Below, one piece after another: positions 13,935 through 36,697 of a stretch of DNA of 64,000 bases. The notes beneath the pieces were generated by a model that saw nothing but the letters and a program-made list of their open reading frames with translations, had not been told where the DNA came from and searched no databases. The DNA comes from Winogradskyella tangerina (GTDB lineage Bacteria; Bacteroidota; Bacteroidia; Flavobacteriales; Flavobacteriaceae), in assembly GCF_003260205.1 (NCBI RefSeq), contig NZ_QERF01000002.1:372001-436000 (forward strand). Reading direction: 5' to 3'. Each line of letters opens with the position of its first letter. Within the stretch, counting starts at the first letter, position 1. Both the position numbers and the translations under genes were made by a program.

Positions 13935-14011
13935 TTCTATGATCTCTTAATTGTAATTAGGACAATAATTCTAGCTTCTGGTTGAATGACTTCACAAGCC
14001 ACTTATATGTA

Positions 14012-15241
14012 TTAGTTTTTGTTCTTGTTCAATTTAATGTCATCTGGTCTTAGCACTATTTCAAAAATGTTTGGATCCTTTATTCGCTTCGTATAAACCA
14101 GCTTATAACTCTGATTTTCTGTTGCATCAATTTGAAAATCTCCCTTTCCAAACAACATGGATTTCTTACCTTTTTTACTTACAATAGATTTGGTAATTAT
14201 ATTCAGCGAGTGTTTGCCTTTGGGCAAGTAAATTTTATTATTATACTTCGTGTTTTTTTTGTTCATACCGAAGCGTTTGGTCACTGAACCATTTATGGTT
14301 ACAATTAGCTCTTGATGGTCTTCAATAGAACCCAATACATGAGTGAGATTAATGGTAATTAAATCCTTGTCATTAATTTCGGGCTCGTCACTGTCACTAT
14401 CTAATCTGGCAACATCTAACCAGTTAAAGTCTTTCATAGCTTCTTTGCCATATCCAACCCATCCAAATCCCATATCTCCCCAGGATGTGCCCCAAGAATT
14501 TTTAATTAACCAGGCTTGTTTAGTGTCGTCCCAACCAACAACCGAAATAGCATGATTAGGTTTCTTTGTTGTATATCTGTTCAGAATCTGTCCAGATTTA
14601 TAATTTTGCCATCTTTTATCAGCATAAACACCAGAAGTTAGTGCGCCATGTTTTACTATAGCATTCTTTATCTCTTGAATACTTGGATTTCTTAATTCAC
14701 CCCAATTTGATACTCTAATATTATTACCGTTTTGTGTAAGGCAATTTTGTCTTGGTCCAACATATGGTTGCTGGTTTTCGGTGTTTAATTCGATGTCATT
14801 CTTGGTCATCCAATCAAGTACTAAATAGGGATGACTCCCTTTACAATTATTACCATATTCTTGATATGGAGGATCTAGTCTGGCACAGTCCACAAGTTGT
14901 TGCTCTGATAGGTCATTTGTAGCATTATTGATAATTAAATGACTCGATTCTATTGCTGAAATTACCGAGAAAGCCCAGCACGTACCACAAGTGCCTTGGT
15001 TTTTTGCCGGAGTGACCCCATTTACATCTCTTAAATCGAAGCGTTTAGCTTGTGCATTACCTAATGGTTGGAAGGTACTTTCGTAAATTTCACTACCAGC
15101 TCCTATATATTCCAATTGGGATCTTAATAAAGCTTCTTTCTTTTCATCTGTAATTTGAAGAAGACCCGTCCCTTTATCTTCTTGCACAACCACTAGAGAT
15201 AAGCAAAATGTTATGAGAAATACGATTATATTAGTTTTCAT
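14012..15241 (-). CDS. papain-family (C1A) cysteine protease, secreted
   Basis: A 409-residue protease with a signal peptide (about 1-18) and a short propeptide-like segment to about residue 66. The C1A domain has the oxyanion Gln82, catalytic Cys88 in NQGTCGTCWAFS, His230 in PNHAISVVGWDD and Asn248 in IKNSWGTSWG, so it should be active. After the protease (from about 275) comes a Ser/Asp/Glu linker (DSDSDEPEIND) and a beta-rich C-terminal domain of about 120 residues (ITINLTHVLGSIEDHQELIVTINGS), perhaps an adhesion or substrate-recognition module. It sits between the kinase gene and the acidic 213-residue protein gene (14-base gap), so these may be functionally coupled. Confidence 0.92.
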   Translation of the reverse strand: MKTNIIVFLITFCLSLVVVQEDKGTGLLQITDEKKEALLRSQLEYIGAGSEIYESTFQPLGNAQAKRFDLRDVNGVTPAKNQGTCGTCWAFSVISAIESSHLIINNATNDLSEQQLVDCARLDPPYQEYGNNCKGSHPYLVLDWMTKNDIELNTENQQPYVGPRQNCLTQNGNNIRVSNWGELRNPSIQEIKNAIVKHGALTSGVYADKRWQNYKSGQILNRYTTKKPNHAISVVGWDDTKQAWLIKNSWGTSWGDMGFGWVGYGKEAMKDFNWLDVARLDSDSDEPEINDKDLITINLTHVLGSIEDHQELIVTINGSVTKRFGMNKKNTKYNNKIYLPKGKHSLNIITKSIVSKKGKKSMLFGKGDFQIDATENQSYKLVYTKRIKDPNIFEIVLRPDDIKLNKNKN

Positions 15242-15255
15242 ATGTTTTCAGTTTA

Positions 15256-15897
15256 TTATAGGTCTTCTCCTAAATTATCTTCTTCGTAATAGGCTTCACC
15301 ATCATTAAGTCCCTCAATAATTTCTTCGTCAGTACCAATCTCTTCGATATCTGAAAATTCTTCGTCTACCGTATCAATTTCAATATCAGGTTCAACTTCG
15401 TCAATAATGCCATCATCAAAATTGGTATTTTCACTAAAAAGTTTAAAAAAAGCTTCTTTGTCTTCTTCTGAAAAGGCTTCCCATTCTTCTTTGGTGTATG
15501 TATTGAAGGCATTGCCTTTCCAAACAAAAAAACCGCCTTGTCCCAATTGTGCTCTGGCCGCTTGAAAGGCTTCATTAAAGTTCATATCTTCAGTTATATT
15601 GTCGGCAAATTCTACAGAAGTTGGTACTTCATAATTGTAAATATGCGCATCGCCATCACTGATATCTGCTTTTTTAATTGGCTCATCGCTATCTGTATCT
15701 AAATCTTCTTCGGCAATGTTGTCGTTGACAGGTTTTGTTATACCAGAAATTGAATAGCCACCTAATAAACCGGCTAAGGCAACTACAGGCAATTTGCCTT
15801 TCTTCAAAAGAACTATCTGTTGTTCTGTTAGTCCTCTAAGTTTAAACTTAGATACTTTAGACTTGTTTATTCTTAAAAGATTTTTATTGTTTTCCAT
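15256..15897 (-). CDS. acidic protein with GGxFxWxG-x-x-Y-x-T motif
   Basis: A 213-residue protein. The N-terminus is basic (about 1-33), followed by a hydrophobic stretch KLPVVALAGLLGGYSISGI (about 35-53). The central motif FNEAFQAARAQLGQGGFFVWKGNAFNTYTKEEW (about 105-140, quoted in parts: FQAARAQLG, GGFFVWKGN, TYTKEEW) is a recurrent Bacteroidota segment of unknown role, usually preceded by Asp/Glu-rich regions. The C-terminal 60 residues are almost all acidic (for example DEVEPDIEIDT, IGTDEEIIEG). It carries DTDSDEP, similar to DSDSDEP in the adjacent protease. A Thr followed by Asp at +3 would suit an FHA ligand, but that is inference. Confidence 0.75.
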   Translation of the reverse strand: MENNKNLLRINKSKVSKFKLRGLTEQQIVLLKKGKLPVVALAGLLGGYSISGITKPVNDNIAEEDLDTDSDEPIKKADISDGDAHIYNYEVPTSVEFADNITEDMNFNEAFQAARAQLGQGGFFVWKGNAFNTYTKEEWEAFSEEDKEAFFKLFSENTNFDDGIIDEVEPDIEIDTVDEEFSDIEEIGTDEEIIEGLNDGEAYYEEDNLGEDL

Positions 15898-15970
15898 TGA
15901 TCAAATTTTTGATACTTAATTAGGCTATTCCGTATTTAGATCATCTTTGATTAGCTATTATTTTGTTTTA

Positions 15971-16429
15971 TTAACTAAAATTCTCCAATACATTGCTTCC
16001 AGATATTCTAGAAAATGGAATAATAATAATGGCAGCAAATAAGTCAATCACAAATAGGATTAATGCCAAGCATAAAATTGACACGACCGTATTCCCAGTA
16101 CTTTCAAATCCTGAATCCCAAGTTTGAACTAATTCTATAAAATCATTTAGAAAAACCCAAGACAATGACACAAATACTACATTAAAAAATAATAATAAAG
16201 CGACTATAACTTCAACTATTATTTTAAATAGGCTATCCATTAAAGCGATGGCTAATCCAAAAATTACTGCACCACAGCAACAACTAATGAGTATTACTTT
16301 GGTTACTGGCCAAAACCCGTCTTCAAAAAGTGAAGACATATTTAAAAATGCAATAAATACTATAAATAGTAATACAACTGTAATTTCAAAGGCTATGGTA
16401 GACTTATTTGATTCTAATTTATCATTCAT
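15971..16429 (-). CDS. small integral membrane protein, four TM helices
   Basis: A 152-residue hydrophobic protein with four predicted helices: about 12-32 (AFEITVVLLFIVFIAFLN), 43-65 (VILISCCCGAVIFGLAIAL), 70-95 and 110-140. I do not recognise a family. It begins after the FHA genes (116-base gap) and ends 73 bases before the acidic protein gene, in the same orientation, so it is probably part of the signalling locus. It could be the membrane partner of the soluble FHA proteins. Confidence 0.7.
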   Translation of the reverse strand: MNDKLESNKSTIAFEITVVLLFIVFIAFLNMSSLFEDGFWPVTKVILISCCCGAVIFGLAIALMDSLFKIIVEVIVALLLFFNVVFVSLSWVFLNDFIELVQTWDSGFESTGNTVVSILCLALILFVIDLFAAIIIIPFSRISGSNVLENFS

Positions 16430-16545
16430 GATTTAAGTGTTTTAATTTATTATCTGTTTCTAAATCAAAACTACTTTACAATGAGCGTCACAATTCAAAT
16501 TAATTTATCAAATGATGGTTTTGTCTTATGAAATTAAATTAGCAT

Positions 16546-17100
16546 CTATTCTATCGATATTATTGTTTGTTTTCCTATTTTAATTTTATCATCCATTTTT
16601 AGAATTACCCTATCGTTTTCTTTCAATTTCTCAGTCGTGTGATTATTTATGATATAAGTACCATTAAGACTCTTTAAATCTTCAATAATGATCCCTTTAT
16701 CAATAGTTAACATAGCATGTATGCGAGAAACCGCTGAATCCATCGCAGCATTAATTATAATTGGATCGGCTTGGCTATTATAGCTGCGTATTCTAGCTGC
16801 GTCTCTTCCTATGATATATATCTTTCCTGGATAGAGGTTTTTCATGCCTAACATTTTATCATCAGTTTCATTGCTAATTTTAATTTTGAATGAATGCTGA
16901 GCAAAGTCGTTATCTTCTATAAGTACTGTACCGCTTTTCTTACTTCGTTTGGTATCTTTCTGAGAGCTTAAATTGCGCTCTAGGTTAAAAAAATATCTGG
17001 TCTTACAAACTTTGCATTTAATTCTTTTGTTTATGCCAAGTATTACCCATTCTTCGGGAATTAAAACTCTTGTGCCGCAATTTTCGCAAGTATGATGCAT
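16546..17100 (-). CDS. zinc-ribbon plus FHA domain protein
   Basis: A 184-residue soluble protein. The N-terminal zinc ribbon has Cys5/Cys8 (CENC) and Cys29/Cys32 (CKVC). A basic linker follows, then an FHA domain (about 92-184) with IGRDAAR, the SRIHAML core and LKSLNGTYI, the standard phosphothreonine-binding features (Gly-Arg, Ser-x-x-His, Asn-Gly). FHA domains recognise pThr proteins, so this is a likely reader for the locus kinase. A basic Lys/Arg stretch links the two domains. It is nine bases downstream of the small acidic protein gene. Confidence 0.9.
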   Translation of the reverse strand: MHHTCENCGTRVLIPEEWVILGINKRIKCKVCKTRYFFNLERNLSSQKDTKRSKKSGTVLIEDNDFAQHSFKIKISNETDDKMLGMKNLYPGKIYIIGRDAARIRSYNSQADPIIINAAMDSAVSRIHAMLTIDKGIIIEDLKSLNGTYIINNHTTEKLKENDRVILKMDDKIKIGKQTIISIE

Positions 17101-17109
17101 TTACAATCT

Positions 17110-17328
17110 TTAAATATCTATATCGTTAAACGCATCCTCATTATCATCATTCGGGTCTTCATCCTCATAAGATTGATGGTCATTATGATCAAGAATATTC
17201 TGATCTTCAATAGAGATTTCATCATCTAGATAGGTAAAATCCATTTCGATGATGCCATTGGCTGAAATGGGTAGGTCTACTATTATTGAGCTTTCTGTGA
17301 CTTCATAGTCGATAATTATTTCTTTCAT
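17110..17328 (-). CDS. small acidic protein
   Basis: A 72-residue protein. The first half is beta-like (MKEIIIDYEVTESSIIVDLP, then GIIEMDFTYLDDEISIED) and the second half is an Asp/Glu/Asn-rich tail ending NDIDI. I do not recognise it. The position between two FHA genes, with gaps of 7 and 9 bases, supports that it is a real translated gene. Its acidic tail recalls those in the 213-residue protein two genes further on. Confidence 0.65.
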   Translation of the reverse strand: MKEIIIDYEVTESSIIVDLPISANGIIEMDFTYLDDEISIEDQNILDHNDHQSYEDEDPNDDNEDAFNDIDI

Positions 17329-17335
17329 AATTCAA

Positions 17336-18010
17336 TTATTTGGTCCAATTGCATTTACAATTAGGGCATGTTTTCTTTTCTTTCCAATATCTCCACTTAT
17401 TATTAGATAATTCTTTATTGCACTTCGGGCAAACAAAACTCAGTTGAAACTCAATCCTTAAATCTTCTAAAAGTGATAGTTTCCTTTTCTCCGATACTGA
17501 TATTGTAGTTAATATTGTGCCTAGAAATCCTGTAACAATAATAATAATGTACCTAATATCGTTATCAATATCTAAAAATGAAATCACCAATATAACCAGC
17601 AGAGTAAGCAGAATTTTTGGTAATGACGTTTTTATTTTATAATACTTATTGAGTCGATTTCGTTTATCTAAATAAGTCTCTTCTATCAATTTTAATTCTT
17701 GAAATTCTTTATGAAAATCTTTTCTAGATTCTTTGACATAATGATTTACATTATTTATTAATTCAATGCTATCGACTTCTATATTTCCGAAAATGATCTG
17801 ATCGGAATTTGATATTTCCTTCGCTAGAATTGATCTCCCATTCACCCTTGTACCGTTAGAGGAGTCTAAATCTTTTAATGTAAGCCTCTGGTAATCATCA
17901 GAGATTTCAATTTCTGCATGTTTACCACTAACTGAAGGATTTTCAATCACAAAATTATTGCTGCTATGTCTACCAATACTAAATGATTTCATTCTAATAC
18001 CAATACACAA
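17336..18010 (-). CDS. FHA domain, two TM helices, C-terminal zinc ribbon
   Basis: A 224-residue protein. The N-terminal FHA domain (about 5-85) has FSIGRHSSNNFVI, SVSGKHAEI and LDSSNGTRVNG, all the ligand-binding signature residues. A helical linker is followed by two hydrophobic segments (about 130-147 and 149-167) and a zinc ribbon at the C-terminus (CPKC near 198 and CPNC near 217). The start overlaps the end of the LytTR gene by 17 bases. It pairs with the zinc ribbon/FHA gene two frames downstream, with the domain order reversed. It probably recruits phosphorylated partners to the inner membrane. Confidence 0.9.
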   Translation of the reverse strand: MCIGIRMKSFSIGRHSSNNFVIENPSVSGKHAEIEISDDYQRLTLKDLDSSNGTRVNGRSILAKEISNSDQIIFGNIEVDSIELINNVNHYVKESRKDFHKEFQELKLIEETYLDKRNRLNKYYKIKTSLPKILLTLLVILVISFLDIDNDIRYIIIIVTGFLGTILTTISVSEKRKLSLLEDLRIEFQLSFVCPKCNKELSNNKWRYWKEKKTCPNCKCNWTK

Positions 18011-18758
18011 ATTTTCTTAATCGCTTTATGTAAGAATTCCCAAAATAAGCCTTATGCTTTGGCGTATTAGGATTTGTTACAAACCAAACATCATTACCGT
18101 CAATTTTTAGAACTCTATTTCTATTAATAATATGCGATTTACCCAATCGCTGAATAGAATTAATCCCAGCAAGACGTTGTTCAGTATCACTTAAAGGTTT
18201 GCTTTCTATCCGTTTTTTACCATCACTGAGATAGATTTCAGTAAAAGCTCCACTCCCGGTACAATAAAGAATATCTTGCGTGTCGACAAGATCAAAATAT
18301 CCCTTAGATCTTATTTTTAACTTCTTCAATATAGCATCCTTATACATTGGAAATTTCATAAGACGATCTATTAAGCAGTTCATAGCACTGAGATCTCCGC
18401 TATCGTTTATATGATAAAAACACACAATTTCCTCCTCCCATCCTACAAAGCCCAAATTCTTGTCTTCAGAGACCAATACAGTATGTGATGGTTTATTATT
18501 TAACTTACTAAGGCTTAGATAACCTCTTAACTGTTCTCTACTTGTTTGTGATCCATCTGGGATATAAAAGAAGTTTATGTTTTCGATATCTTCGAGATAG
18601 GCATTTTTTAAATTGTGCCATTGGGACTCAATTTGTTCAATATAGGCTTCATTTGAGAAATTGATAAAGTCTAGTTCGGTCTGTATATTCAACATGGGTG
18701 GTGTTAGAAAATCGAATGTTGAATTTAAGCAAAAAAAAGTACATAAGACCATAATCAA
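17994..18758 (-). CDS. LytTR-type DNA-binding protein without receiver domain
   Basis: A 254-residue protein. The C-terminal 110 residues match LytTR: FDLVDTQDILYCTGSGAFTEIYLSDGKKR, then RLGKSHIINRNRVLKI, and a final YIKRLRKF. The N-terminal about 140 residues are not a receiver; they contain NISFNEAYIEQIE-like helical segments and a block reading HTVLVSEDKNLGFVGWEEEIVCFYH that I do not recognise, perhaps a ligand sensor. A hydrophobic start (MIMVLCTFFCLN) may be an over-long prediction; Met at residue 23 (MLNIQTELDF) is an alternative. It lies between PP2C and FHA genes, so it may regulate the locus. Confidence 0.8.
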   Translation of the reverse strand: MIMVLCTFFCLNSTFDFLTPPMLNIQTELDFINFSNEAYIEQIESQWHNLKNAYLEDIENINFFYIPDGSQTSREQLRGYLSLSKLNNKPSHTVLVSEDKNLGFVGWEEEIVCFYHINDSGDLSAMNCLIDRLMKFPMYKDAILKKLKIRSKGYFDLVDTQDILYCTGSGAFTEIYLSDGKKRIESKPLSDTEQRLAGINSIQRLGKSHIINRNRVLKIDGNDVWFVTNPNTPKHKAYFGNSYIKRLRKFVYWY

Positions 18759-18779
18759 CTAAATTTAAATGGGTTAGGT

Positions 18780-19547
18780 CTAAATTGTTGAAATATTTAT
18801 CCAATCAGATCTAAACCCTGAATGTTGATTTACATCCTGAGGTTCAAATTCGCAAATGATTGCAGAGTGATTGTCGTTACTTTTAACTGCACAATCTTGT
18901 TTAATGATTTCTAATTTCTGTTCTATAGAAATTACTTGATTTGAAAGTACCTCAAGAAGTGAGCGATCCGAAAAAGACTCGGCTACGCCATCAGAACAAA
19001 TAAAACAAAGGTCTCCAGATTTTAAATCTGATATAAAATTAATCTCTGGAACAACAACATTTCCATCGACATTTCCTCTTATGGCATTAAAAATCTGATT
19101 ATTCATAGGATGCGATCGGGCTTCTTCTCTTGTAATTTCATTTTTCTGTACAAGCTTCCCGACTATTGAATGATCCCAGCTTTGCCAAAATAAATTTTGA
19201 TCTGGCTTTATAAAGTAGATGCGACTATCACCGGCATGAGCAGTTAATACTCCTTGTTCAATAATAAAAATTGACGCTATTGTTGTTGCCATTCCTTCTA
19301 ACAATGGGTTTTCTAAGACCAATTGATTAAGCTCCTTATGCGCACTCTCAATTAAACCGACGATTTTTTTATCGGTCGGTATTGCAGCTACATTTTTTAA
19401 GATTGTGTCTACTATTAATTTACTTGCAACGTCTCCCTTTGACGCTCCACCTACACCATCACAAACAATCAAACAATGACTGTTATATCCTATGCAATCT
19501 TGATTTACGTCTTTTTTACCTTTATGACTATAGGATTTTATTTTCAT
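18780..19547 (-). CDS. PP2C-family Ser/Thr phosphatase
   Basis: A 255-residue protein phosphatase. PP2C motifs are in order: NQDCIGYN, CDGVGGASKGDVAS (metal-binding Asp), MATTIASIFI, AHAGDSRIYFI, the WDHSIVGKLV stretch, and ICSDGVAESF; metal-binding Asp residues are present throughout. The length matches the single-domain PP2C type found beside PknB kinases. It is the first gene of the signalling locus (213 bases of upstream DNA), 22 bases before the LytTR gene. It should reverse phosphorylation by the WG-repeat kinase. Confidence 0.92.
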   Translation of the reverse strand: MKIKSYSHKGKKDVNQDCIGYNSHCLIVCDGVGGASKGDVASKLIVDTILKNVAAIPTDKKIVGLIESAHKELNQLVLENPLLEGMATTIASIFIIEQGVLTAHAGDSRIYFIKPDQNLFWQSWDHSIVGKLVQKNEITREEARSHPMNNQIFNAIRGNVDGNVVVPEINFISDLKSGDLCFICSDGVAESFSDRSLLEVLSNQVISIEQKLEIIKQDCAVKSNDNHSAIICEFEPQDVNQHSGFRSDWINISTI

Positions 19548-25722: not shown

Positions 25723-27132
25723 TCAGACTTTTAAAATTTTTAATATAATTTTTGTTTCATTTATTACCTCATCAGCAATAACCTCCAAGGATATTTTGGG
25801 ATTACTTTTTATCAAATCTTTAATAATTATCAACCCTGGATAAGGGTTTTTCCATGAAGTGTCTCTGGGATAGTTCGGAATTTTGCCTTTTAAATAATCA
25901 GCAAGATCATTGTCAAGTGCAGGCTCATTAATGAATTCAACATAATATTCCTTGCCTTTATTATAACCATTTATATGTAAATCATCTTTAGTGTTATGTA
26001 CTATTCCATTTCTCCACAGGTTCCATAATATTAATATGAAATCAAATAATTCATAATTATTTTTATCCGGTGTTATCTTTGGATAATAATGTTCCTGCTT
26101 ATCAAAACAAAAATTGGTTAAAACTTTTCTATCATTATAATTTTCTTCAAAGTCTTTTAAGATTTGGAAGATGCTTTTTCCTTCATACTTAATATCATAG
26201 TCCGTATATCCTGCGCTGACTAATTCGTAGTCAAACATTAAATGATGTGTAAGCTCATAAACAAGAAAAATCTGTTCTATTTCATTTAGTGCCCTATTTA
26301 TTTTATCGGCATCTTTAGTTGTAATCCCTCTCTTCAAATTGCGTATTGCACTTAATGGATTTAATTGCTGTAAATTATGTTTATACCCTAACACATATGA
26401 CTTTCTGCGGCCAGAAAGTAGCTTAGTCAATACTGGACTGTGAAAATAAATATCCAAAAAATAGAATACTTCTTTGTAAAGCAGTTTTGAAATCTCATGT
26501 AAAATTGTATCTTCAGGGTGTTGTATATTTATTCTAAATGTGCAAACTAGTGTATTATCGTCATAGGCATCCTCAGTTTCTAACCCTAACTTTTCACTTA
26601 AGACTAGTATCTGTTGACTAGATTTTATATTGTCTTTTGAGCTTTCTACATTGAACAAATAGTTTTTTTTATTTGTTATCGCGCAATCTATAACTGGTAA
26701 AAAAAGTAAAAGATCTTCAGCGTCATTTTCATAATCTAAGTTATTCTTTGTGTTCTTTAAGACGTATGTTTTAGATTCTTCGTCTATATAATAGTCGTAA
26801 AACAAATAGCCATTAATACCTTTACTCACTCTTAAGTCTTCAAATCGCCTATTAACTCTTACATCAACCTGTTTGAGTATCTCATTTTGGGCTAAGTCAA
26901 TATTCAAGCTATCTACAGCCTCACTATCAGTAAAAGGAAAATCAAAATAGTGATACGAATCTAAAAGTACACCATAAGCGATCTGTTCTAGTTTTATCTG
27001 ATAGGCCTCCTTTAAAGATATTTTTGAACCTTTTAGGAAAATCGAACTCAAAATGTACTTATTTATTTTTTCTACATACTTGTCAATTTTATGGTGATGT
27101 TCCTTTTTTTCTTTGTGACTGAGTGGAATCAT
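25723..27132 (-). CDS. degenerate histidine-kinase-like protein
   Basis: A 469-residue protein without a membrane segment. The region about 245-270 (YKHNLQQLNPLSAIRNLKR) looks like a DHp helix with His252. The C-terminal part looks like a HATPase core: WNLWRNGIVHNTK (371-382, N-box style Asn), INEPALDND (402-410, G1-like without the usual D-x-G-x-G), and NPYPGLIIIKDLIK (430-442, G2-like). Several ATP-binding glycines are missing, so it may be a divergent or non-catalytic kinase. It has a 4-base overlap with the decarboxylase stop and is two bases before the receiver-domain gene. Confidence 0.5.
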   Translation of the reverse strand: MIPLSHKEKKEHHHKIDKYVEKINKYILSSIFLKGSKISLKEAYQIKLEQIAYGVLLDSYHYFDFPFTDSEAVDSLNIDLAQNEILKQVDVRVNRRFEDLRVSKGINGYLFYDYYIDEESKTYVLKNTKNNLDYENDAEDLLLFLPVIDCAITNKKNYLFNVESSKDNIKSSQQILVLSEKLGLETEDAYDDNTLVCTFRINIQHPEDTILHEISKLLYKEVFYFLDIYFHSPVLTKLLSGRRKSYVLGYKHNLQQLNPLSAIRNLKRGITTKDADKINRALNEIEQIFLVYELTHHLMFDYELVSAGYTDYDIKYEGKSIFQILKDFEENYNDRKVLTNFCFDKQEHYYPKITPDKNNYELFDFILILWNLWRNGIVHNTKDDLHINGYNKGKEYYVEFINEPALDNDLADYLKGKIPNYPRDTSWKNPYPGLIIIKDLIKSNPKISLEVIADEVINETKIILKILKV

Positions 27133-28619
27133 TTAAATATATTTTTGGTTGTATTACCTATTCTAATCACATCTTTTACTAAGTCTTCGAAATCCTCTTT
27201 TACTGTTCTGTGGTTGACATTCGCAATTCTAATACAATACTTGTTTTCAATATATACATGAGACGTTACGGCACAGCCAAATTCTTGAAGTTCAACCACA
27301 ATCTCTCTATTTAATTTATTCAACCCCTCTTCAGACATTTTTTCTTGAGGTACAAATCGAAAGCATACAATATTCATTGTAACTGGGGTTACCAATTCCA
27401 ACAGCTCCTCATCATCTACTAATTCCCCTAAATAATATGACTGAGCAATATTTTGCTGTACTATTTCACCAATTTTGTTAAGACCCTGTTCCTTTAACAT
27501 CATCCATATTTTTAATGCCCTAAAACCACGGGTCATTTCAATGCTATAGTTGAAAATTGGATCTGGTCCGGACGCGAGGCCTCTGGCGTGTACTTGCAAA
27601 TAATCTGGCTGTATTGCAAATGCATTTCTGTGATGGTGCTTATTTTTTACCAACAGACAGCCTGTCCCGAAAGGCAATGACATCCATTTATGAGTATCAA
27701 ATGCAAGACTGTCGGCTGCATTCATTGATTTAAGCATTTTTTTATGCGAAGGTGCAAACTTCGCAAACGCTCCAAATGCACCATCTACATGCATCCAAAG
27801 CCCCTCGCGCTTACAAATTTTACTTATCTCATCTAAAGGGTCTATTGCTCCCGTATTTACAGTACCAACATTTGCAACAATACAAAACGGAACGTTACCC
27901 TTTTTTCGATCTTCAATTATAGCTTGCTCTAATTTTTGAACATCAATTTGAAATTCTGACGTGGTGTCAACTAAAGTTACAGAATTTATACCTAGGCCCA
28001 TGATATCTGCAGCTTTAATTACACAACTATGAGCTTCAGTAGAAGTATATATAATCAATCTAGAGTTGTATTCTAACATTCCCTGTTTGCGCACAACTTG
28101 ATTGGTCGCTTTGTCTCTTGCTATAAGAAGCGCTGTTAAATTTGCTGTGGATGTACCACTTACAAGTATACCGCTGGCATTATTCGGAAATCCCATCATT
28201 TTTTTTAGCCAATCTATAACCTGCTTCTCAATATACATGGCACCATGGTCTCCAGTGCAAACATCTGGGTTTAAGCCTGCAACTAATATCTCCGAAAGAA
28301 TGGACGAAACTGTACCTGTCCCCTGTACCCAAGACCAGAATTTGGGGTGAATATTACCTTTGTAATAAGGGGTTAAATTTTCTTTAATATCTTGATATAC
28401 TTTGTTTAAATTTTTAGGTTCTATCGGAAGGGCTTCACCTAATATTGCGCCTTTACTATCATCCGTTGGTTGCGTCCATACAGGTTGATTACGAATATCC
28501 TTAAGTAAAGCAAACATATCTTTGACCATTTTATGAGCCAAGTCTTCCATTTCATCCCAATCCTTAGGGTCAAAAGATTTTTCGTACTTGAGTAACTCTT
28601 TATAATTCATAATTAACAA
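27129..28619 (-). CDS. PLP-dependent group II amino acid decarboxylase
   Basis: A 496-residue enzyme of the aromatic-amino-acid/glutamate decarboxylase family (group II). It shows GILVSGTSTANLTAL, EAHSCVIKAADIMG, NVGTVNTGAIDPLDEI, WMHVDGAFGAFAKF (Asp-x-Ala motif holding the pyridine ring) and FDTHKWMSLPFGTGCLLV with the PLP lysine in DTHK. The length is normal for the family. It would release an amine and CO2 from an amino acid; which one is not certain. Initiation may be at the second Met (28610), and the frame overlaps the ABC ATPase stop by 20 bases. In an operon with an importer, the amine precursor or product may be the transported ligand. Confidence 0.88.
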   Translation of the reverse strand: MLIMNYKELLKYEKSFDPKDWDEMEDLAHKMVKDMFALLKDIRNQPVWTQPTDDSKGAILGEALPIEPKNLNKVYQDIKENLTPYYKGNIHPKFWSWVQGTGTVSSILSEILVAGLNPDVCTGDHGAMYIEKQVIDWLKKMMGFPNNASGILVSGTSTANLTALLIARDKATNQVVRKQGMLEYNSRLIIYTSTEAHSCVIKAADIMGLGINSVTLVDTTSEFQIDVQKLEQAIIEDRKKGNVPFCIVANVGTVNTGAIDPLDEISKICKREGLWMHVDGAFGAFAKFAPSHKKMLKSMNAADSLAFDTHKWMSLPFGTGCLLVKNKHHHRNAFAIQPDYLQVHARGLASGPDPIFNYSIEMTRGFRALKIWMMLKEQGLNKIGEIVQQNIAQSYYLGELVDDEELLELVTPVTMNIVCFRFVPQEKMSEEGLNKLNREIVVELQEFGCAVTSHVYIENKYCIRIANVNHRTVKEDFEDLVKDVIRIGNTTKNIFK

Positions 28620-29631
28620 CTTCGATTATATCTTCAAATTTTCCATTTTTATTAAATCTCAAAACTTTTCCCTTTAAAAACAATTTACACCCGGAAATTG
28701 ATTTCGTCATGAGATTTATCCTTTGTCCATCTAGCAGTTCTATCTGAGCATATTTATCATTTTTATATAAAATATTAAAATCAAATCCCAAGGTATCTGA
28801 ATAGCCAATATTGTTTTCATCTAAACTTATGAAAAAAAAGTCTTCTCCTTTTGCAAGTTGAATTTGATTATCTCTATCAAAAGTACATTTCATGATTTTT
28901 GCATTTGGGTATTTTACAGCCTCCAAAGCCTCTAATAATTTAGGTTTTTCTAAAAAGTTATTCAGTGAATCTATATAAATGGAGCTATCTTTAGAAAGTT
29001 CATCTCGGTAAATATATGCAATATCGTCTGCAACCAATTGTGCTTCATCTAAATGGTGAGTAACATAAATACCCAAGGTATTTGTCCCGAGTATAATTTC
29101 CCTGAGTTGATTGAGAAATTGTGCCCTAGTTCGTGCATCAAGTCCCTTTGCTGGCTCATCCATCATGATGGTGTCCGGATTTATACTTAAGGCTCTTAAT
29201 AAAGCTATTCTTTGTCTTTGACCTCCACTTAAATTATTAACCGAAGTTTTACTCTTTAGAACTTCTTCGAGCCCTAAACTCTTTTTAAACGTTTCGAATG
29301 TTTTATTATCAAATAAGTATTTGTAGGCCTTAACACTCTTGAAATAAATGGCGTTATCTAGAGGCGACAAAAATTCCATCAAAACAGGTTCTTGGGGCAA
29401 GTAAGAGACCACATTTTTTTTACTGACAATATCAACAGAGCCAGCACTAGGTGAAAGGTTACCAAGCATAAGTTTCAGCAATGTTGATTTACCGACACCG
29501 CTTTCCCCAAGCAGTGCAATTATGTGGCCTTTGTCTTCATGCCTTTTATTGAAACTAAGCGAAAGATTCTTAAAAATGAGTTGGTCTTTGGTATATCCAA
29601 AACTTGTATTATGAAGTTCTATTTTACTCAT
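28600..29631 (-). CDS. ABC transporter ATP-binding protein
   Basis: An ABC ATPase. I place the start at 29631 (MSKIELHNTSFGY), residue 21 of the longest frame, because the extension would overlap the permease gene by 68 bases. It has Walker A LLGESGVGKST, Q-loop YLPQEPV, signature NLSGGQRQRIALLRAL, Walker B IMMDEPAKGLD and the switch His in YVTHHLDEA. A C-terminal segment from about 230 (KCTFDRDNQIQL, ELLDGQRINLM, KGKVLRFNKNGK) is a TOBE-like regulatory domain as in MalK/PotA-type ATPases. The complete transporter is encoded with the next two genes upstream. Confidence 0.9.
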   Translation of the reverse strand: MSKIELHNTSFGYTKDQLIFKNLSLSFNKRHEDKGHIIALLGESGVGKSTLLKLMLGNLSPSAGSVDIVSKKNVVSYLPQEPVLMEFLSPLDNAIYFKSVKAYKYLFDNKTFETFKKSLGLEEVLKSKTSVNNLSGGQRQRIALLRALSINPDTIMMDEPAKGLDARTRAQFLNQLREIILGTNTLGIYVTHHLDEAQLVADDIAYIYRDELSKDSSIYIDSLNNFLEKPKLLEALEAVKYPNAKIMKCTFDRDNQIQLAKGEDFFFISLDENNIGYSDTLGFDFNILYKNDKYAQIELLDGQRINLMTKSISGCKLFLKGKVLRFNKNGKFEDIIEVVNYEL

Positions 29632-31231
29632 TGTGACTATAAATTTTAGAGTTTTTAAATACCAAATAATTCCAAACCATAACACAAACAACTGCTAGAC
29701 CTATTGAAAAATACAAAAAGATCATTCCTTTAGAATAATCTGCCGATCTTCCTGAAATGGTCATGTTCAATTCAGTGACAAAGGATTTTATTTGATCTGA
29801 TAACACATTATTAATTATGGATTCATTCCAAATTAGGGCGCAAGAAATAAGTCCTAAAAGAAGATAATCTGCCTTGAAAGGTTTAAAGAATAAGTCTCTT
29901 GTTTTTTCTAACAAACTAATCTTATGAATTTGTAAATAATTAATATGATCGGTCTTTACCCTGAAGTGTGTTGCCATAGAAAATGAGGTGATTAATGGAA
30001 ATGCCATAATTACATGACCAATTACCCATGAGATGCGAATGCCAAAAGATGCTCTATAACCTACTATGTCCATCCATTTAAACCCAAGTATTAAAAATAC
30101 AATTGGCGGAATCATAACCAGCATAAAAAGAGCTAAAAAAAAGCGTAAGGACTTGGAATTAAAATTTGCCAATATTTGCTTCCACATCAAACGACATAGC
30201 ACACTGAAAATAAATGCTAATGCGGTTAGTATTAAAGCTGAAATAAAAGTCATCAATAAGGTTGGTCCAAGTTTTTCTAATCCAAGCTGAAAATTCACTT
30301 TGTTGGTTAAAAGAACATAGAGCATGGGTAGAATTATCCACATTACAAGTATAGGTAAGCTTAATTTACTGGTGAATTCAGCGTTAATACTCTTATAGTT
30401 TCGGGCAGTTTTACTTTTAATTCTTTGCTCGAATACTTTAATGAATATTATTATTAAAATAACCAATGACACTAAAGAAACTATAAAAACAAAAACAGAA
30501 GATGTCGCTAGTTGTTCAAAAGCAAAGTCTGAATTAATCAATGAATTTGTTTTAAAAGTTCTATGAAGCCAATGACTTGCTAATTCTGTATTTGTACCGC
30601 GAGATGCTTTAAATATGAAATACATTTTTGCTTCCTCAAAAAATGAAAAAACAAAAACAACCATAAATAATAATACTGACAAATTTCTTTGTTTAGGTAG
30701 TACGATATCACGAACTTTTTCGTATTGGTTTAGACCTATCGCATTTGCATACTCCCAAACTTTCGGGGAAATTGTCTGTTGATTTAACCAAAAAAGATAA
30801 ATAACTAAGCTTCCAAATTGCCAAAACTGTATGGCAGATAGAGTCAAGAATTTTGTGCTCGGATTTATATAAACGAACTCATTATTTATAAGTACAACTT
30901 TAAATATGAAAGCTATGGAGGCACCACCTATAAGAGTTGGGATAAGTAAAATACTTAGGTATTTGCCTCTATTTTCACTGAGCTTAATTTTAACAAGTAA
31001 TAAGGAAAAAATTAATCCGATTATGACACACAATGCAGCAACAAAAGCTGCAAAAAACAAGGATCTTATTACAGGATTAATAAAGTTGTCATTTGAGGTG
31101 AAAAAATCCTTTATATCCGCTGAAACAAAATTTACATTAGAAATAAAAGGAAGATTATACCCTAAGTAAATAGCAATTAAAGCCAATAACAAAAATTTTA
31201 TCAGGAAATGCTCCTTTATTCTATATCCCAT
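29624..31231 (-). CDS. ABC transporter permease, fused double domain
   Basis: A 535-residue membrane protein with about 12 TM helices in two halves (about 60-265 and 315-525). Each half carries an EAA-like loop: YANAIGLNQYEKVRDIVLPKQ near residue 195 and a degenerate one near 435 (LQIHKISLLEKTRDLFFKP). Fused binding-protein-dependent permeases of this kind are known from Fe(III)/thiamine/spermidine-type importers. Between the halves are two hydrophobic helices and a short basic stretch. It overlaps the ATPase start by eight bases and lies 11 bases after the solute-binding protein gene. Confidence 0.85.
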   Translation of the reverse strand: MGYRIKEHFLIKFLLLALIAIYLGYNLPFISNVNFVSADIKDFFTSNDNFINPVIRSLFFAAFVAALCVIIGLIFSLLLVKIKLSENRGKYLSILLIPTLIGGASIAFIFKVVLINNEFVYINPSTKFLTLSAIQFWQFGSLVIYLFWLNQQTISPKVWEYANAIGLNQYEKVRDIVLPKQRNLSVLLFMVVFVFSFFEEAKMYFIFKASRGTNTELASHWLHRTFKTNSLINSDFAFEQLATSSVFVFIVSLVSLVILIIIFIKVFEQRIKSKTARNYKSINAEFTSKLSLPILVMWIILPMLYVLLTNKVNFQLGLEKLGPTLLMTFISALILTALAFIFSVLCRLMWKQILANFNSKSLRFFLALFMLVMIPPIVFLILGFKWMDIVGYRASFGIRISWVIGHVIMAFPLITSFSMATHFRVKTDHINYLQIHKISLLEKTRDLFFKPFKADYLLLGLISCALIWNESIINNVLSDQIKSFVTELNMTISGRSADYSKGMIFLYFSIGLAVVCVMVWNYLVFKNSKIYSHNE

Positions 31232-31242
31232 GTCATTTCTCC

Positions 31243-32601
31243 CTAATTAGACTTTTGATTAACTGAGAACAATTTTTTGCGCCCAATTGTTATTTCAGAC
31301 TGTATTTGCTCTAAAGCTTCCTCTTCGGTTAATTCATCATTCCAGCATCTTTGAATATAAGTAGTAATAATTTCATTAATCATATTAGAATCAATTCCAG
31401 CGACTAGGGCGATATCCGCCCTATCTAAAGACTTTGCCAATGCCTCTGAATAAGGCAATTTAGCTACTTCTGGATTTAAATAGGTTGTTTTCAAGGGAGA
31501 GCAAAAACCATTCAAAGCCATTTGAACTTGGGTTGATTCTTGCATCAAATAATTAATGAACTTAGAAACTTCGCCTAAATTTTTTGTTTGTTTATTTACA
31601 AAGTAAGCTCCTCCTCCTAAAATTGAGCTATTTCCAGGTACTTCTGCAAAACCAAATCGATTATCTGATTCTGCAGCAAATAAGGACGGATATATCATAT
31701 CACTCCAAACAAATGCCATAGCAGTTTTTCCTTTTTTCATTATCCTCATTTGTTCGAACTGCTCTACATTAGAATATTGACCGCTATTAAAATTCTTCAT
31801 TTTATTATAAAGCTTGAGCGCTTCAAGATTTTCAGGAGAATTAACAATAACATTGGTGTCCGGTTTACTGTCCCAACCTCGCTTAGAATCTAGGACTTTA
31901 CCTCCCTTTAATCCACCTAAAAAGTTCATTAGTTCGAAATATAAGAAGCCTCCTGGACCACCCTCAATACATACACCTTTTTCTCCTTTGTCTTCATTGG
32001 TGAAAAACTCAGCTACGGTATAATAATCTTCCCAATTAGATGGAATCTTCAACTCTTTGTTATAAATAGAAAAGTACTCTTCTTTGTTAATGGAATCTTC
32101 AAACATGGATTTATTGTACATTAATAGCATTGTTAATGCAGCTGAAGGATAGCCAACCTTAATCACGTCCTTATCACTATCTGAGTTTATGTTATAATAA
32201 TACCCTAATTCTTCCCAATAGTTTTGAAATAGATCAGATTCAAAAGCCAACATTTTACTATCAACACTTGAATTGACCTCATCTAGAAGATGAATGTAGT
32301 CGTTCTCAACAAAGGAAGACAATGAAAAGTTATATTGAATAACTATGTCATAAAGACCTGTTTTATTTGCAAAGTCTTGATTTGATTTGTTGAATGCGTC
32401 ATCGAAGGTATTGGGATGAAACTTTAAATCTACATTTGGGTTTTCTCGTTCATAATCCTCTTCAATGCTCATCATTGCCTGCATTGTAGATGTATTCTCC
32501 CCTATTATACTAATTTCAATTTTATCAGTTTTTTCATCACAACTTAGTGTGATAAGCAGCGGTATTATTACTAAGAATAATATGAATCTTGGTTTTCTCA
32601 T
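31243..32601 (-). CDS. ABC transporter solute-binding lipoprotein
   Basis: A 452-residue substrate-binding protein with lipoprotein signal MRKPRFILFLVIIPLLITLSC (Cys21). The mature part has family-1/8 SBP features: ISIIGENTSTMQAMMSIEEDYERENPNVDLKF, then YDIVIQYNFSLSSFVENDYIHLLD, GYPSAALTMLLMYNKSMF, and GKTAMAFVWSDMIYP. The length and the two alternating lobes fit cluster B sugar/Fe-type SBPs. Substrate cannot be read from sequence. It is the first gene of a six-gene operon; tandem repeats at 32644-32675 lie about 45 bases upstream. Confidence 0.85.
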   Translation of the reverse strand: MRKPRFILFLVIIPLLITLSCDEKTDKIEISIIGENTSTMQAMMSIEEDYERENPNVDLKFHPNTFDDAFNKSNQDFANKTGLYDIVIQYNFSLSSFVENDYIHLLDEVNSSVDSKMLAFESDLFQNYWEELGYYYNINSDSDKDVIKVGYPSAALTMLLMYNKSMFEDSINKEEYFSIYNKELKIPSNWEDYYTVAEFFTNEDKGEKGVCIEGGPGGFLYFELMNFLGGLKGGKVLDSKRGWDSKPDTNVIVNSPENLEALKLYNKMKNFNSGQYSNVEQFEQMRIMKKGKTAMAFVWSDMIYPSLFAAESDNRFGFAEVPGNSSILGGGAYFVNKQTKNLGEVSKFINYLMQESTQVQMALNGFCSPLKTTYLNPEVAKLPYSEALAKSLDRADIALVAGIDSNMINEIITTYIQRCWNDELTEEEALEQIQSEITIGRKKLFSVNQKSN

Positions 32602-33046: not shown

Positions 33047-34186
33047 TTAAGAAATCATTAACGAAGTTTCATGTGGGAATAGATGTTTTGAAACCTCAAG
33101 TCTAATAAAATCAATTAATTTATATAAATCATCACACCATACAGATTCATTTTTAAAATTGTTTTTATCAGAATATCTGTGTGGTAAATATCCTCCTTTA
33201 CACACTTCAAAATTTCTGCATTGTAAACATTTGGCACTATAATCTTTTTGCCATAAAGTAAATCCATTTTCATTATACACATTATTCATAAATTCTAACA
33301 AGGTACCATTTCCCTTATGATGTTTTGTAGATCCATCGTAACACACCTTAAGTGCATCTAATAATTCATAATTACCATTTGATTCTACAATAACATAACC
33401 TAGCCCATTTCCTCCAAATAAATCTGTCTTTGGGACACCTCCCAAAATTGCGCTGATAATATCTTCAAATAGTCTTATTCTAATACCCGAATGATCCTTT
33501 TGCCATTCGATAAACAATGAAATCAAATAATTTGCTAATGCATATTTAGGAAGTAAGTGATAGTACTTCTCTCTGCTATCATGCGTTACATCTGGAATTA
33601 GGAAACTCATTCTTTTAACACCAATTTTCTTGATCGCATTATAAGTGGAATCTCCCCTCGTATAAGGATCAATTACACATAAGATATTTACATCTATTCC
33701 TGACGAAATTAATTTATGGATACCCTTTATTGTACTTTCATAACTACCTTCTCCCTTATGGTCAAGTCTAAATTTATCATGACTTTCCTTAGTCCCATCT
33801 AAGCTTACACTAACTCCAATCTGATATTGTTTGATTAACTTTATAAAAGTTGAATTGATAAGTGTAGCATTAGTTTGAATTGAAAGTGAAGTTAAATTAT
33901 TGCCAAGTCTTTCTTTAAGTTTTTTGATAAATGCTTCAAATGCTTCCTCCTTCATTAACATTGGTTCTCCACCATGTAGTGTTATTTCAATAGGATGTTT
34001 TTTTATTAATAATATTTCATTCAAATCGTCGCAGATTTTATCTAGGACTTTTAAACTCATGAATTTGGGTTGTTCCAGATACGAGTTATCTAGATGATTG
34101 TACAAATAACAGTAAGAACAATTTAGGTTGCATCTAGAGGCAACTTTTAATATTAACGAAGGTATATATGTCTTTAGGAACTTCAT
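33047..34186 (-). CDS. radical SAM/SPASM peptide maturase (FxsB/cyclophane-forming type)
   Basis: A 379-residue radical SAM enzyme. The cluster motif is ASRCNLNCSYCY (Cys19, 23, 26). HGGEPMLM and VSVSLDGTKESHDKFR are typical of anSME/SPASM enzymes. The C-terminal auxiliary-cluster region contains Cys282, Cys320, Cys323, Cys329 and Cys351 in KCLQCRNFEVCKGGYLPHRYS and ESVWCDDL. The pair GGYLPHRYS...WC-D-D-L is the mark of the FxsB/GrrM/XyeB-like maturases, several of which form three-residue cyclophanes on aromatic-X-X motifs. The ATG overlaps the upstream stop by four bases (ATGA). The neighbouring precursor repeats such motifs, so cyclophane formation on it is inferred, not shown. Confidence 0.9.
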   Translation of the reverse strand: MKFLKTYIPSLILKVASRCNLNCSYCYLYNHLDNSYLEQPKFMSLKVLDKICDDLNEILLIKKHPIEITLHGGEPMLMKEEAFEAFIKKLKERLGNNLTSLSIQTNATLINSTFIKLIKQYQIGVSVSLDGTKESHDKFRLDHKGEGSYESTIKGIHKLISSGIDVNILCVIDPYTRGDSTYNAIKKIGVKRMSFLIPDVTHDSREKYYHLLPKYALANYLISLFIEWQKDHSGIRIRLFEDIISAILGGVPKTDLFGGNGLGYVIVESNGNYELLDALKVCYDGSTKHHKGNGTLLEFMNNVYNENGFTLWQKDYSAKCLQCRNFEVCKGGYLPHRYSDKNNFKNESVWCDDLYKLIDFIRLEVSKHLFPHETSLMIS

Positions 34187-34989
34187 TTATCAAATTCTAA
34201 TTTTTTGAGAAGTTCTTTAAACAAGAAATCGCCATCAGGTGTGAGATGTGTACGGTTTTGGATTAGAGACTCTGTTAAACTAATTACGTCCTTCTTTGTC
34301 TGATTATAAATTGCATTTGCCTGTTCTAATAATTTTTTATCATTAATTTTTAAAAAGAATTTATTATAAAAAATAAGTACATTTGAAAAGGCATGAAATG
34401 CTAGTAAAACTAAAATTAGTGGTCTTTTTGTATTTTTTACACTTGAATAAGCATCAGGAGCATTTTCTCTTACAAGCTTTGCTTTAGCTAAAAATTTATA
34501 AAAATGTTGATGGGAAGATTCATGAATAAGCATCTCACATAATGCTACTTTTGAAACTAGTAATGAAATATGTACTTCACCAGGTTTAATAGAAAGGCTT
34601 GAACTCTCCATTATTGAGGGAGGTTTAAGAAGGATGACCAGTTTATGAATGGCGCTGCTTATCCAGAACGCGAAGTCCGGTTCTACTTCTCTAATTAGCG
34701 CAGTTGAATCTAAAATTTTATTCTTAGCAATTTCAATTATATCAAAACGATATTCGTCCCTTAAAGCTTCGAATGACAGTACATCAAGCTCTATTTTAGG
34801 ATGCCAATTTGATAAATGATTTTTATCTCTTTGACATATTTGAATTATTCGAAATAAATGTTCTTTGAATATATTATTTTCTGGAAGTTCATTTAAAAAA
34901 AATACTTCTTTCTCTAACTGATTATGGAATTTTTTAATTGATTTTTCGAATTCTATACCAGGAGTAGCAAAATAGTTTTGCATTAACAA
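34183..34989 (-). CDS. HExxH-motif putative peptide beta-hydroxylase
   Basis: A 268-residue protein of the HExxH family (TIGR04267-like, now annotated as aKG-HExxH-type peptide beta-hydroxylase). The motif is CEMLIHESSHQHFY (His156-Glu157-x-x-His160). The downstream pattern NTKRPLILVLLAFHAFSNVLIFY has the conserved Arg-Pro then hydrophobic helix of that family, and HLSNW is another family segment. Members are encoded beside FxsB-type radical SAM enzymes and are thought to hydroxylate peptide side chains with Fe(II) and 2-oxoglutarate. It lies six bases after the precursor gene and overlaps the radical SAM gene by four. Confidence 0.85.
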   Translation of the reverse strand: MLMQNYFATPGIEFEKSIKKFHNQLEKEVFFLNELPENNIFKEHLFRIIQICQRDKNHLSNWHPKIELDVLSFEALRDEYRFDIIEIAKNKILDSTALIREVEPDFAFWISSAIHKLVILLKPPSIMESSSLSIKPGEVHISLLVSKVALCEMLIHESSHQHFYKFLAKAKLVRENAPDAYSSVKNTKRPLILVLLAFHAFSNVLIFYNKFFLKINDKKLLEQANAIYNQTKKDVISLTESLIQNRTHLTPDGDFLFKELLKKLEFDK

Positions 34990-34995
34990 TTAAAA

Positions 34996-35349
34996 TTAGT
35001 TGTTCGCAGAATTACTTTTATTTACCTTAAGTTGATCTCTTAATGAATCTAGTAAATTCTCCTTTAAATCATCAGGGATTCTAGGATCGTTATTCCAAAT
35101 TGAAATAAGTTCCGCTATTCTTTTGTCATCCTTTTCGTAGACATCCTTTTTTTCATAAGAACCGCCTTTAGTGTACGTACTTGGAGATCCAGATTTTGTG
35201 TATGTACCACCTTTGGTATATTTAGTGAATGGATTATTAATAGGATCAAAAGGATTTGTTGAAGGATCTACTGATAACATATCCTTTGGGTTTAATTCTA
35301 GAAGAGCACGCATTAAGGCTTTTGCTAGAGAATCATTTAAATCTGACAT
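34996..35349 (-). CDS. RiPP precursor peptide with repeated aromatic-x-Lys motifs
   Basis: A 117-residue protein I infer to be the precursor. The N-terminus (about 1-25) is an amphipathic helix (LAKALMRALLELNPKDML), suitable as a leader. The core (about 41-73) contains six aromatic-x-Lys tripeptides: F41-T-K, Y44-T-K, Y50-T-K, Y59-T-K, Y65-E-K and Y71-E-K, spaced by Gly/Ser-rich linkers. The C-terminus (about 76-117) is another charged helix (LISIWNNDPRIPDDLKENLLDSL), an unusual follower. No signal peptide. The gene is six bases upstream of the HExxH gene and transcribed first. Other explanations, such as a structural protein with low-complexity repeats, cannot be excluded. Confidence 0.8.
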   Translation of the reverse strand: MSDLNDSLAKALMRALLELNPKDMLSVDPSTNPFDPINNPFTKYTKGGTYTKSGSPSTYTKGGSYEKKDVYEKDDKRIAELISIWNNDPRIPDDLKENLLDSLRDQLKVNKSNSANN

Positions 35350-35402: not shown

Positions 35403-35561
35403 AAAATGTTACACAATGGAATGTATAAAATGCGTTTTAAAACTTTTTATTTATTACAATTATTGTTTATTTAGATTCAAATAGTTTATTTGAGGTTATG
35501 TAATTAAAACGGAAAGTAGCTCCATGAAAAAAGTTAGTATTTTATCCATATGATACTTCGG

Positions 35562-35605
35562 ACTTAAGTTGACTGTTTATTAAATTTATAGACAACTTAA
35601 AAGTC
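35562..35605. repeat. inverted repeat at IS left end
   Basis: GACTTAAGTTG (from 35561) pairs with CAACTTAAAAGTC (ending at 35605), with a two-base bulge. It lies between the left terminal repeat and the transposase ATG at 35612, where it could regulate transposase expression. Confidence 0.5.
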
Positions 35606-35611
35606 TGACTT

Positions 35612-36532
35612 ATGACCAGAGAACAAAGGCATGATATTAAGAGAAAACTAGATGTTTTTGATTATGCTAAAAAGGTGGGCAACATTAACAAAGCTTGTAG
35701 GCATTACGGGATCTCTAAGACGACTTATTTTAATTGGTTAAAGCGTTATCAAAAAGACGGAGAAAAAGGATTGATTAACAATAAGCCTTGTCCAGAAAAT
35801 ATAAGATTACGCACACCCATTGAGGTAGAAGAGAAAGTCCTTTACCTAAGAAAGAAATATCATTTTGGTCCAGAGAGAATCTATATGTATTTGAAACGTT
35901 ATCTCGATATTGAAACCTCTGAAAGTAGTGTGTATCGTATCTTAAAGAGAAATGGAATCAGTAGACTCCCAAGAAATGCTAAAAGACGCTCTCCAGGACC
36001 AAAATTTAAGCGATATGAGAAACAAACCCCTGGCCATCACATTCAAATGGACGTAAAGTTCCTTACCTTCACTGATAAGCAAGGAAAAAGCATAAAACGC
36101 TATCAGTACACAGCTATCGATGATGCAACCAGAATACGCGCCTTAAAAGTCTATAATAGACATAACCAGAACAATGCTATTGATTTTTTAAATTATGTGA
36201 TCAAAAAGTTTCCTTTTCGGATTAAAATGGTAAGAACCGATAATGGTCATGAGTTCCAGGCAAGATTTCATTGGCATTGTCAAGACCAGGGGATAGAACA
36301 TGTTTATATAAAGCCAGGAACTCCAAGGCTGAACGGGAAAGTAGAAAGATCACATCTCACCGATAAGCTGGAATTCTATCAATTAATCGAGTACACATCA
36401 GATGTTGATTTAGGAAAGAAAATGAACGAATGGGAGAATTTTTATAACTTTAACAGACCCCATAAATCTCATGGAGGATTGACACCTTATGAAGTATTCA
36501 GAGCAAAAATGAATATCAATATTCAAAGTTAA
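35612..36532 (+). CDS. IS481-family DDE transposase
   Basis: A 306-residue single-frame transposase. The N-terminal helix-turn-helix (KACRHYGISKTTYFNWLKRY) is followed by a second one and by an integrase core (about 135-300) with the DDE residues in GHHIQMDVKFLTF (first Asp), MVRTDNGHEF (second Asp, about 211) and LNGKVERSH (Glu, about 248). The end YNFNRPHKSHGGLTPYEVF is typical of IS481 and IS3-type transposases. The frame is complete with no frameshift, so the element may be active. Confidence 0.93.
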   Translation: MTREQRHDIKRKLDVFDYAKKVGNINKACRHYGISKTTYFNWLKRYQKDGEKGLINNKPCPENIRLRTPIEVEEKVLYLRKKYHFGPERIYMYLKRYLDIETSESSVYRILKRNGISRLPRNAKRRSPGPKFKRYEKQTPGHHIQMDVKFLTFTDKQGKSIKRYQYTAIDDATRIRALKVYNRHNQNNAIDFLNYVIKKFPFRIKMVRTDNGHEFQARFHWHCQDQGIEHVYIKPGTPRLNGKVERSHLTDKLEFYQLIEYTSDVDLGKKMNEWENFYNFNRPHKSHGGLTPYEVFRAKMNINIQS

Positions 36533-36547
36533 CCCTAGTTTGAAGTA

Positions 36548-36697
36548 TCACAACTCTACCCAACTGCTGTCAGCAATAACACCACTTTCATTTGATAAAC
36601 CAAAATACAACTCTGTTCTTTTACCATTGGCTTTATCTGTACATTTACATGATGTAATTAAAAACAGACCAAATATGGATAAAACCATATACCTCAT
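36548..36697 (-). pseudogene. DUF3574-type lipoprotein, 3' end lost to IS481 insertion
   Basis: The minus-strand frame from ATG at 36697 begins with a lipoprotein signal (MRYMVLSIFGLFLITSC, Cys17) and continues GKRTELYFGLSNESGVIADSSW, which matches the start of DUF3574 proteins (R-T-E-L-Y-F-G-L-S...W). Then it runs into the right inverted repeat of the IS, whose first bases give a TGA stop (36548-36550) after 49 residues. The remaining part of the domain is not found on the other side of the element. I therefore call it a disrupted gene. Confidence 0.75.

Follow-up and report, generated by a model that had tools for sequence, protein, structure and literature searches.

An operon for a putative modified peptide

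In a 64,000-nucleotide stretch of the Winogradskyella tangerina genome (contig NZ_QERF01000002.1, forward-strand positions 372,001 to 436,000; hereafter the window), we observed a tight run of three minus-strand genes which, as judged from sequence and a structure model, encode a precursor peptide with six aromatic-x-Lys triads, a ChlB- and YhhB-related radical S-adenosylmethionine (SAM)/SPASM enzyme, and a separate protein of the aKG-HExxH fold (Table 1). This run is probably a minimal operon of the triceptide kind for a ribosomally synthesised and post-translationally modified peptide (RiPP), in which Tyr/Phe-x-Lys cyclophanes would be formed at several sites and the HExxH protein would contribute beta-hydroxylation. 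The radical SAM enzyme would abstract a beta hydrogen from Lys (i+2) and link the beta carbon to the aromatic ring of the Tyr or Phe at position i, so that several of the six sites would become three-residue cyclophanes. Using iron and 2-oxoglutarate, the HExxH enzyme would then beta-hydroxylate at least one residue in or beside the cyclised repeats. This order is modelled on ChlH, which acts on a cyclised substrate.

The initial annotation had described a RiPP operon of three co-directional genes with 6-base and overlapping spacings, and a RiPP-like operon is supported. Both coordinates and sequence agree with the described layout: 6 bases separate the precursor and HExxH genes, and the HExxH and radical SAM genes overlap by 4 bases (ATGA). 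An in-frame ATG lies two codons downstream of the TTG start of the HExxH gene. The genome assembly consists of 3.5 Mb in 16 contigs.

Table 1. Features of the operon and its upstream neighbour (positions in the window).
Feature	Position	Strand	Basis
Precursor peptide gene, 117 aa	34996..35349	-	Open reading frame (ORF), ATG start, first of the tight three-gene run
Probable leader, residues 1-40	35230..35349	-	Sits before the repeats; inferred
Repeat (probable core) region, residues 41-73: FTKYTKGGTYTKSGSPSTYTKGGSYEKKDVYEK	35131..35229	-	Sequence, permutation, codon listing; core status inferred
Probable follower, residues 74-117, with stop	34996..35130	-	Sits after the repeats; inferred
aKG-HExxH-type peptide beta-hydroxylase relative (predicted), stand-alone, 268 aa	34183..34989	-	ORF, TTG start
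HESSH metal-binding motif, residues 156-160	34510..34524	-	H156, E157, H160 invariant in 20 aligned proteins
Radical SAM/SPASM maturase (predicted), ChlB/YhhB-like, 379 aa	33047..34186	-	ATG start; NF041707 325 bits, ChlB 9gm3 E 4e-49
Radical SAM CxxxCxxC, residues 19-26	34109..34132	-	C19, C23, C26 invariant in 24 aligned sequences
SPASM auxiliary-cluster cysteines C320, C323, C329, C351	33134..33229	-	Invariant in 24 aligned sequences
IS481-family insertion element, upstream neighbour outside the pathway	35551..36550	+	Transposase 35612-36532; NF033577 263.6 bits, cut-off 224

The precursor peptide

All six repeats proposed in the initial annotation (FTK, YTK three times and YEK twice) were located in the precursor, the triads starting at F41 (FTK), at Y44, Y50 and Y59 (YTK) and at Y65 and Y71 (YEK). 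Lys thus stands at +2 of six of the eight aromatic residues, the other two being F34 (FDP) and W85 (WNN). As in triceptide systems, a precursor with aromatic-x-x triads, here six, accompanies a radical SAM gene. When the whole precursor was shuffled with the first Met fixed, at least six aromatic-x-Lys triads appeared in 2 of 200,000 draws (mean 0.89), and shuffling residues 33-73 alone gave none in 200,000 (mean 1.16); these figures are post hoc, motif and region having been picked after they were seen. Synonymous codons vary among the repeats (Thr is ACT, ACC, ACA and ACT in the four xTK triads, and Tyr is TAT or TAC), and therefore the repeats are not a fresh DNA duplication. The leader-like, repeat and follower-like parts are our own division of the sequence and probably reflect its organization.

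The precursor matched no Pfam or NCBIfam model, and nothing better than E 0.24 was obtained from PHROGs. No homologues were found in plasmids at E 10 or in viral contigs, and the search of its own genome returned only the precursor itself and one match at E 0.29. Among 214 genomes of the family, three matches were obtained at E 0.01, namely the precursor itself and two (E 0.004 and 0.007) that we judged to be due to chance: one lies inside a different type of gene, of 518 aa, and the other inside a gene whose likeness to RNase HII was read from its translation.

The radical SAM enzyme

The nearest solved relative of the radical SAM enzyme by sequence was ChlB (PDB 9gm3), aligned over nearly the full length. 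Among the NCBIfam models, YhhB (NF041707) gave the highest score (325.5 bits, cut-off 445), and FxsB (254, cut-off 370), XyeB (166.4, cut-off 450) and GrrM (113.5, cut-off 310) gave lower ones; the DarE model also matched, at 94 bits. The enzyme had been annotated as an FxsB/GrrM/XyeB-like maturase. Its assignment to a cyclophane-forming group was retained, whereas the subfamily was not, considering that YhhB scores best, that the scores are under both the YhhB and the FxsB cut-offs and that the nearest structure is ChlB. Both the radical SAM and the SPASM cysteines of a triceptide maturase are present, all seven being invariant in the 24 aligned rows.

In the products of YhhB, Arg C-beta is bonded to Tyr C3 and to His C2, while in those of YxdB it is Asp C-beta that is bonded to Tyr C3 (PMC11002830), and in darobactin Trp C6 is joined to Lys C-beta (PMC9055067). 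With respect to YhhB, which makes Tyr-Arg and His-Arg cyclophanes, the window enzyme scores under the cut-off, its presumed substrate has Lys in place of Arg, and its operon adds an HExxH partner.

The best identities to relatives, among the matches listed, were 37-39%. At E 1e-20, only its own genome among 68 of the genus had a homologue; across the phylum, 15 of 395 genomes did, counting its own. In a 100-row tree the enzyme fell outside a 22-row clade (SH-aLRT 99) containing all 14 named Bacteroidota rows, a placement that is unsure, as the tree was built by a quick method without the approximately unbiased (AU) test and the branch is long. The fork joining the window enzyme, the Bacteroidota clade, two Rhizobium plasmid enzymes with one acidobacterial enzyme, and the remainder was without resolution.

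The HExxH protein

The HExxH protein scored 48.3 bits with TIGR04267 (aKG-HExxH peptide beta-hydroxylase; cut-off 40), and its structure model has the fold of the ChlBH HExxH domain. Both results are in line with the family of putative 2-oxoglutarate-dependent beta-hydroxylases named in the initial annotation, and we predict that the protein is a relative of the aKG-HExxH hydroxylases. R189-P190 was invariant in 20 of 20 aligned rows; for two Rhizobium HExxH proteins, the Arg column was kept in one alignment and lost in another.

Homologues were rare in the genome samples, which may overlap one another. Only its own genome was found among 60 relatives (36 of the same genus), among 388 genomes of the family at 1e-5 and, with the family model, among 395 genomes of the phylum. 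A homology search of the latter gave two matches, its own genome and one at E 9e-4, which was rejected because it has three stops inside. No homologues were found in plasmids at 1e-5 or in viral contigs.

Alternative readings

Several observations weigh against the proposed pathway. The radical SAM enzyme is under the cut-off of every curated cyclophane subfamily model (YhhB, FxsB, XyeB and GrrM), the sulfatase-maturase model came third overall, between FxsB and XyeB, and in the tree the enzyme stands by itself on a branch of length 1.57. A triad-bearing ORF was not found at every related locus, and no precursor homologue was found, so conservation of the motif between species lacks support. 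The HExxH protein has neither the SPW motif nor the FW pair that are common among the aligned rows, its residues 1-80 are poorly modelled, and a third iron ligand was sought and not identified. Finally, no exporter or protease gene was found within the operon.

The lack of any score above a subfamily cut-off, the lone branch and the rank of the sulfatase-maturase model (177 bits, ahead of the 166 of XyeB) would also suit an enzyme of different chemistry (ether link, epimerisation or dehydrogenation), for which Tyr-x-Lys would be a recognition or linker motif; DarE, whose model matches the enzyme, makes an ether link (PMC9055067). We regard this as unlikely, since YhhB, FxsB and XyeB, the three peptide-maturase models with the highest scores, are each named as cyclophane-forming and ChlB is the closest PDB entry by sequence. 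The cross-link spacing of streptide is K-x3-Y, and it occurs three times in the repeat region (K46-Y50, K61-Y65 and K67-Y71). Lys-to-Tyr links of this type, in place of Tyr-x-Lys, seem distinctly improbable: the spacing fits three of the five tyrosines, as compared to the six of eight aromatics that fit aromatic-x-Lys, and the best peptide-maturase matches are three-residue cyclophane formers (streptide enzymes were outside the direct comparison). That the HExxH protein is a zinc protease trimming the precursor is very improbable in view of its fold, even if HExxH is the classical zincin motif and PflC, an aKG-HExxH enzyme, cuts the backbone and is proteolytic without the leader (PMC12636437).

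Comparison with known systems

Cyclophane formation combined with beta-hydroxylation, the reading that we prefer, has a precedent in ChlBH of Chlorogloeopsis, which has the same two enzyme folds. ChlBH installs cyclophanes in a peptide and, once this is cyclised, beta-hydroxylates its Asp and His (PMC12636437); the title of the paper on ChlB calls the enzyme a multiple cyclophane synthase (cited in PMC12636437). ChlBH is a fused polypeptide, whereas the two enzymes of the window are separate ORFs; moreover, ChlH modifies Asp and His, while the window precursor has Tyr-x-Lys repeats and a Bacteroidota host. The claim of a new RiPP carrying both modifications was thus narrowed: the Tyr-x-Lys target looks new, whereas the pairing is already known, since ChlBH does both, and the window system counts as a variant through its Tyr-x-Lys triads, its six sites, its separate enzymes and its Bacteroidota host. 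No Tyr-x-Lys cyclophane was found in the accessible portions of the literature searched, subscription papers being outside the reach of the search.

A more ambitious reading, which we put forward with considerable doubt, is that the product is a cationic, polycyclic RiPP that carries as many as six Tyr(C3)/Phe-to-Lys(C-beta) cyclophanes on one chain and is also beta-hydroxylated by a stand-alone HExxH enzyme; it would be the first Tyr-x-Lys triceptide, from a deep, separate ChlB-like lineage acquired by a flavobacterium. If the proposal is correct, Lys would become a further residue to which Tyr is linked in three-residue cyclophanes, and a compact three-gene system with a six-site substrate would allow one to test, with a cyclase and an aKG-HExxH hydroxylase as separate proteins, in which order they act and which sites they choose. 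It would also place the cyclase and HExxH pairing in Bacteroidota, where the sampled related cyclases show no visible HExxH gene.

Two Rhizobium plasmid operons (NZ_CP050304.1 and NZ_CP071682.1) have the same order of repeat ORF, radical SAM gene and separate HExxH gene. Both HExxH proteins pass TIGR04267, with identities to that of the window of 27 and 24% in a 3-row alignment and of 19 and 14% in a 22-row alignment. These operons differ in their His-based HDQTH repeats, very long ORFs, HExxH proteins of 375 and 360 aa, and an extra Nal1/S64-protease-like gene, over the NAL1_N cut-off in one of the two. At the Rhizobium plasmid loci L019 (3736-8537) and L021 (2986-8496; L numbers are our own), ORFs of 380 and 632 residues with many MHDQTHSEGGG-like repeats precede the radical SAM, HExxH and Nal1/S64-protease-like genes, and likely encode a giant multi-core RiPP precursor.

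SjiH (PDB 22nu and 22ob) is deposited under the molecule name 'Radical SAM core domain-containing protein'. A profile of mostly actinobacterial proteins gave 344 bits for SjiH as compared to 170 for ChlH, and this far better score suggests that SjiH is of that kind; a literature search for SjiH returned no relevant paper.

Related loci

A contig scan for relatives of the radical SAM enzyme gave at least 593 stretches and at least 501 relatives, of which the best 80 were kept, so that a closer relative may exist. An HExxH domain was present in at least 36 of these 80 loci, fused to the radical SAM enzyme in about 14 of the 36. By phylum, it was seen in 32 of 53 loci of Actinomycetota, 3 of 10 of Pseudomonadota, the single one of Planctomycetota, 0 of 14 of Bacteroidota and 0 of 2 of Acidobacteriota; these counts are lower bounds, as some loci end at contig ends (e.g., L037 and the acidobacterial L027), and the hidden Markov model used was built partly from the scanned loci and the window and leans towards them. 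The 14 named Bacteroidota loci that encode a related enzyme showed no HExxH partner (in L037, the sequence stops about 80 bases past the match), nor did seven more within 1.5 kb per side (L005-L011). The enzyme matched 201 plasmid records, with HExxH in two of the top five, namely the two Rhizobium plasmids described above, and no HExxH gene was seen beside it in L112 and L113, the best two of 80 viral-contig loci.

In several Bacteroidota relatives, short ORFs that may encode precursors contain triads of the type Tyr-x-Glu, Tyr-x-Arg, Trp-x-Lys or His-x-Gln. In L044 and L066, whose HExxH domains group with ChlH, the candidate precursors end in YDRMHHRHNRS. An ORF ending in FDLSFDLTFDLTFDLTFDLSFS adjoins a related radical SAM enzyme in Nitrospirillum (L100, 4658-4894), and on a Rhizobium etli plasmid (L192, 3033-6958) a small ORF, a different radical SAM/SPASM enzyme, an HEAVH protein and a JmjC protein form one run.

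One or more proteins of about 280 aa with an HID...H pattern are encoded after YhhB-like enzymes of Bacteroidota (L006, 505-1356; L008, 2739-3569), and ORFs judged similar by eye from their starts occur in L026, L028, L029 and L034. The two HID...H proteins tested had no Pfam or NCBIfam match; possibly, these proteins are another oxygenase family paired with triceptide enzymes.

Origin and neighbourhood of the locus

The locus looks acquired, a conclusion that is suggestive only and that derives from the low guanine-cytosine (GC) content of the operon, the upstream IS481 element and the failure to find radical SAM and HExxH homologues in the sampled genomes of the genus (0 of 67 and 0 of 36 other genomes, respectively). 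The operon genes have a GC content of 0.29-0.33 as compared to 0.376 for gyrA, and low GC spans much of the left half of the window. The probable ends of the IS481 element were taken from a 24-nt inverted repeat (75%), one lying 201 bases upstream of the precursor gene. Among 40 related genomes, the flanking solute-binding protein gene was found in one (its own) and the glucokinase gene in five (its own and four of other families), the latter in 0 of 24 other genomes of the genus. A comparison with an empty site was dropped because neither flanking gene was found in the other same-genus genomes sampled.

Downstream, the region 27129-32601 encodes a solute-binding protein, a permease-like protein (BPD_transp_1 just under the cut-off) and an ATPase, and then a pyridoxal phosphate (PLP) decarboxylase. 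The ATP-binding cassette (ABC) transporter at 28600-32601 was not adopted as the exporter of the operon, since its solute-binding protein points to import and 445 bases lie between it and the operon. Further away, a Ser/Thr kinase with WG repeats and a papain-family protease are encoded at 11955-19547, with FHA-like and phosphatase-like ORFs, recognized by eye, nearby; this is possibly a signalling or conflict cluster.
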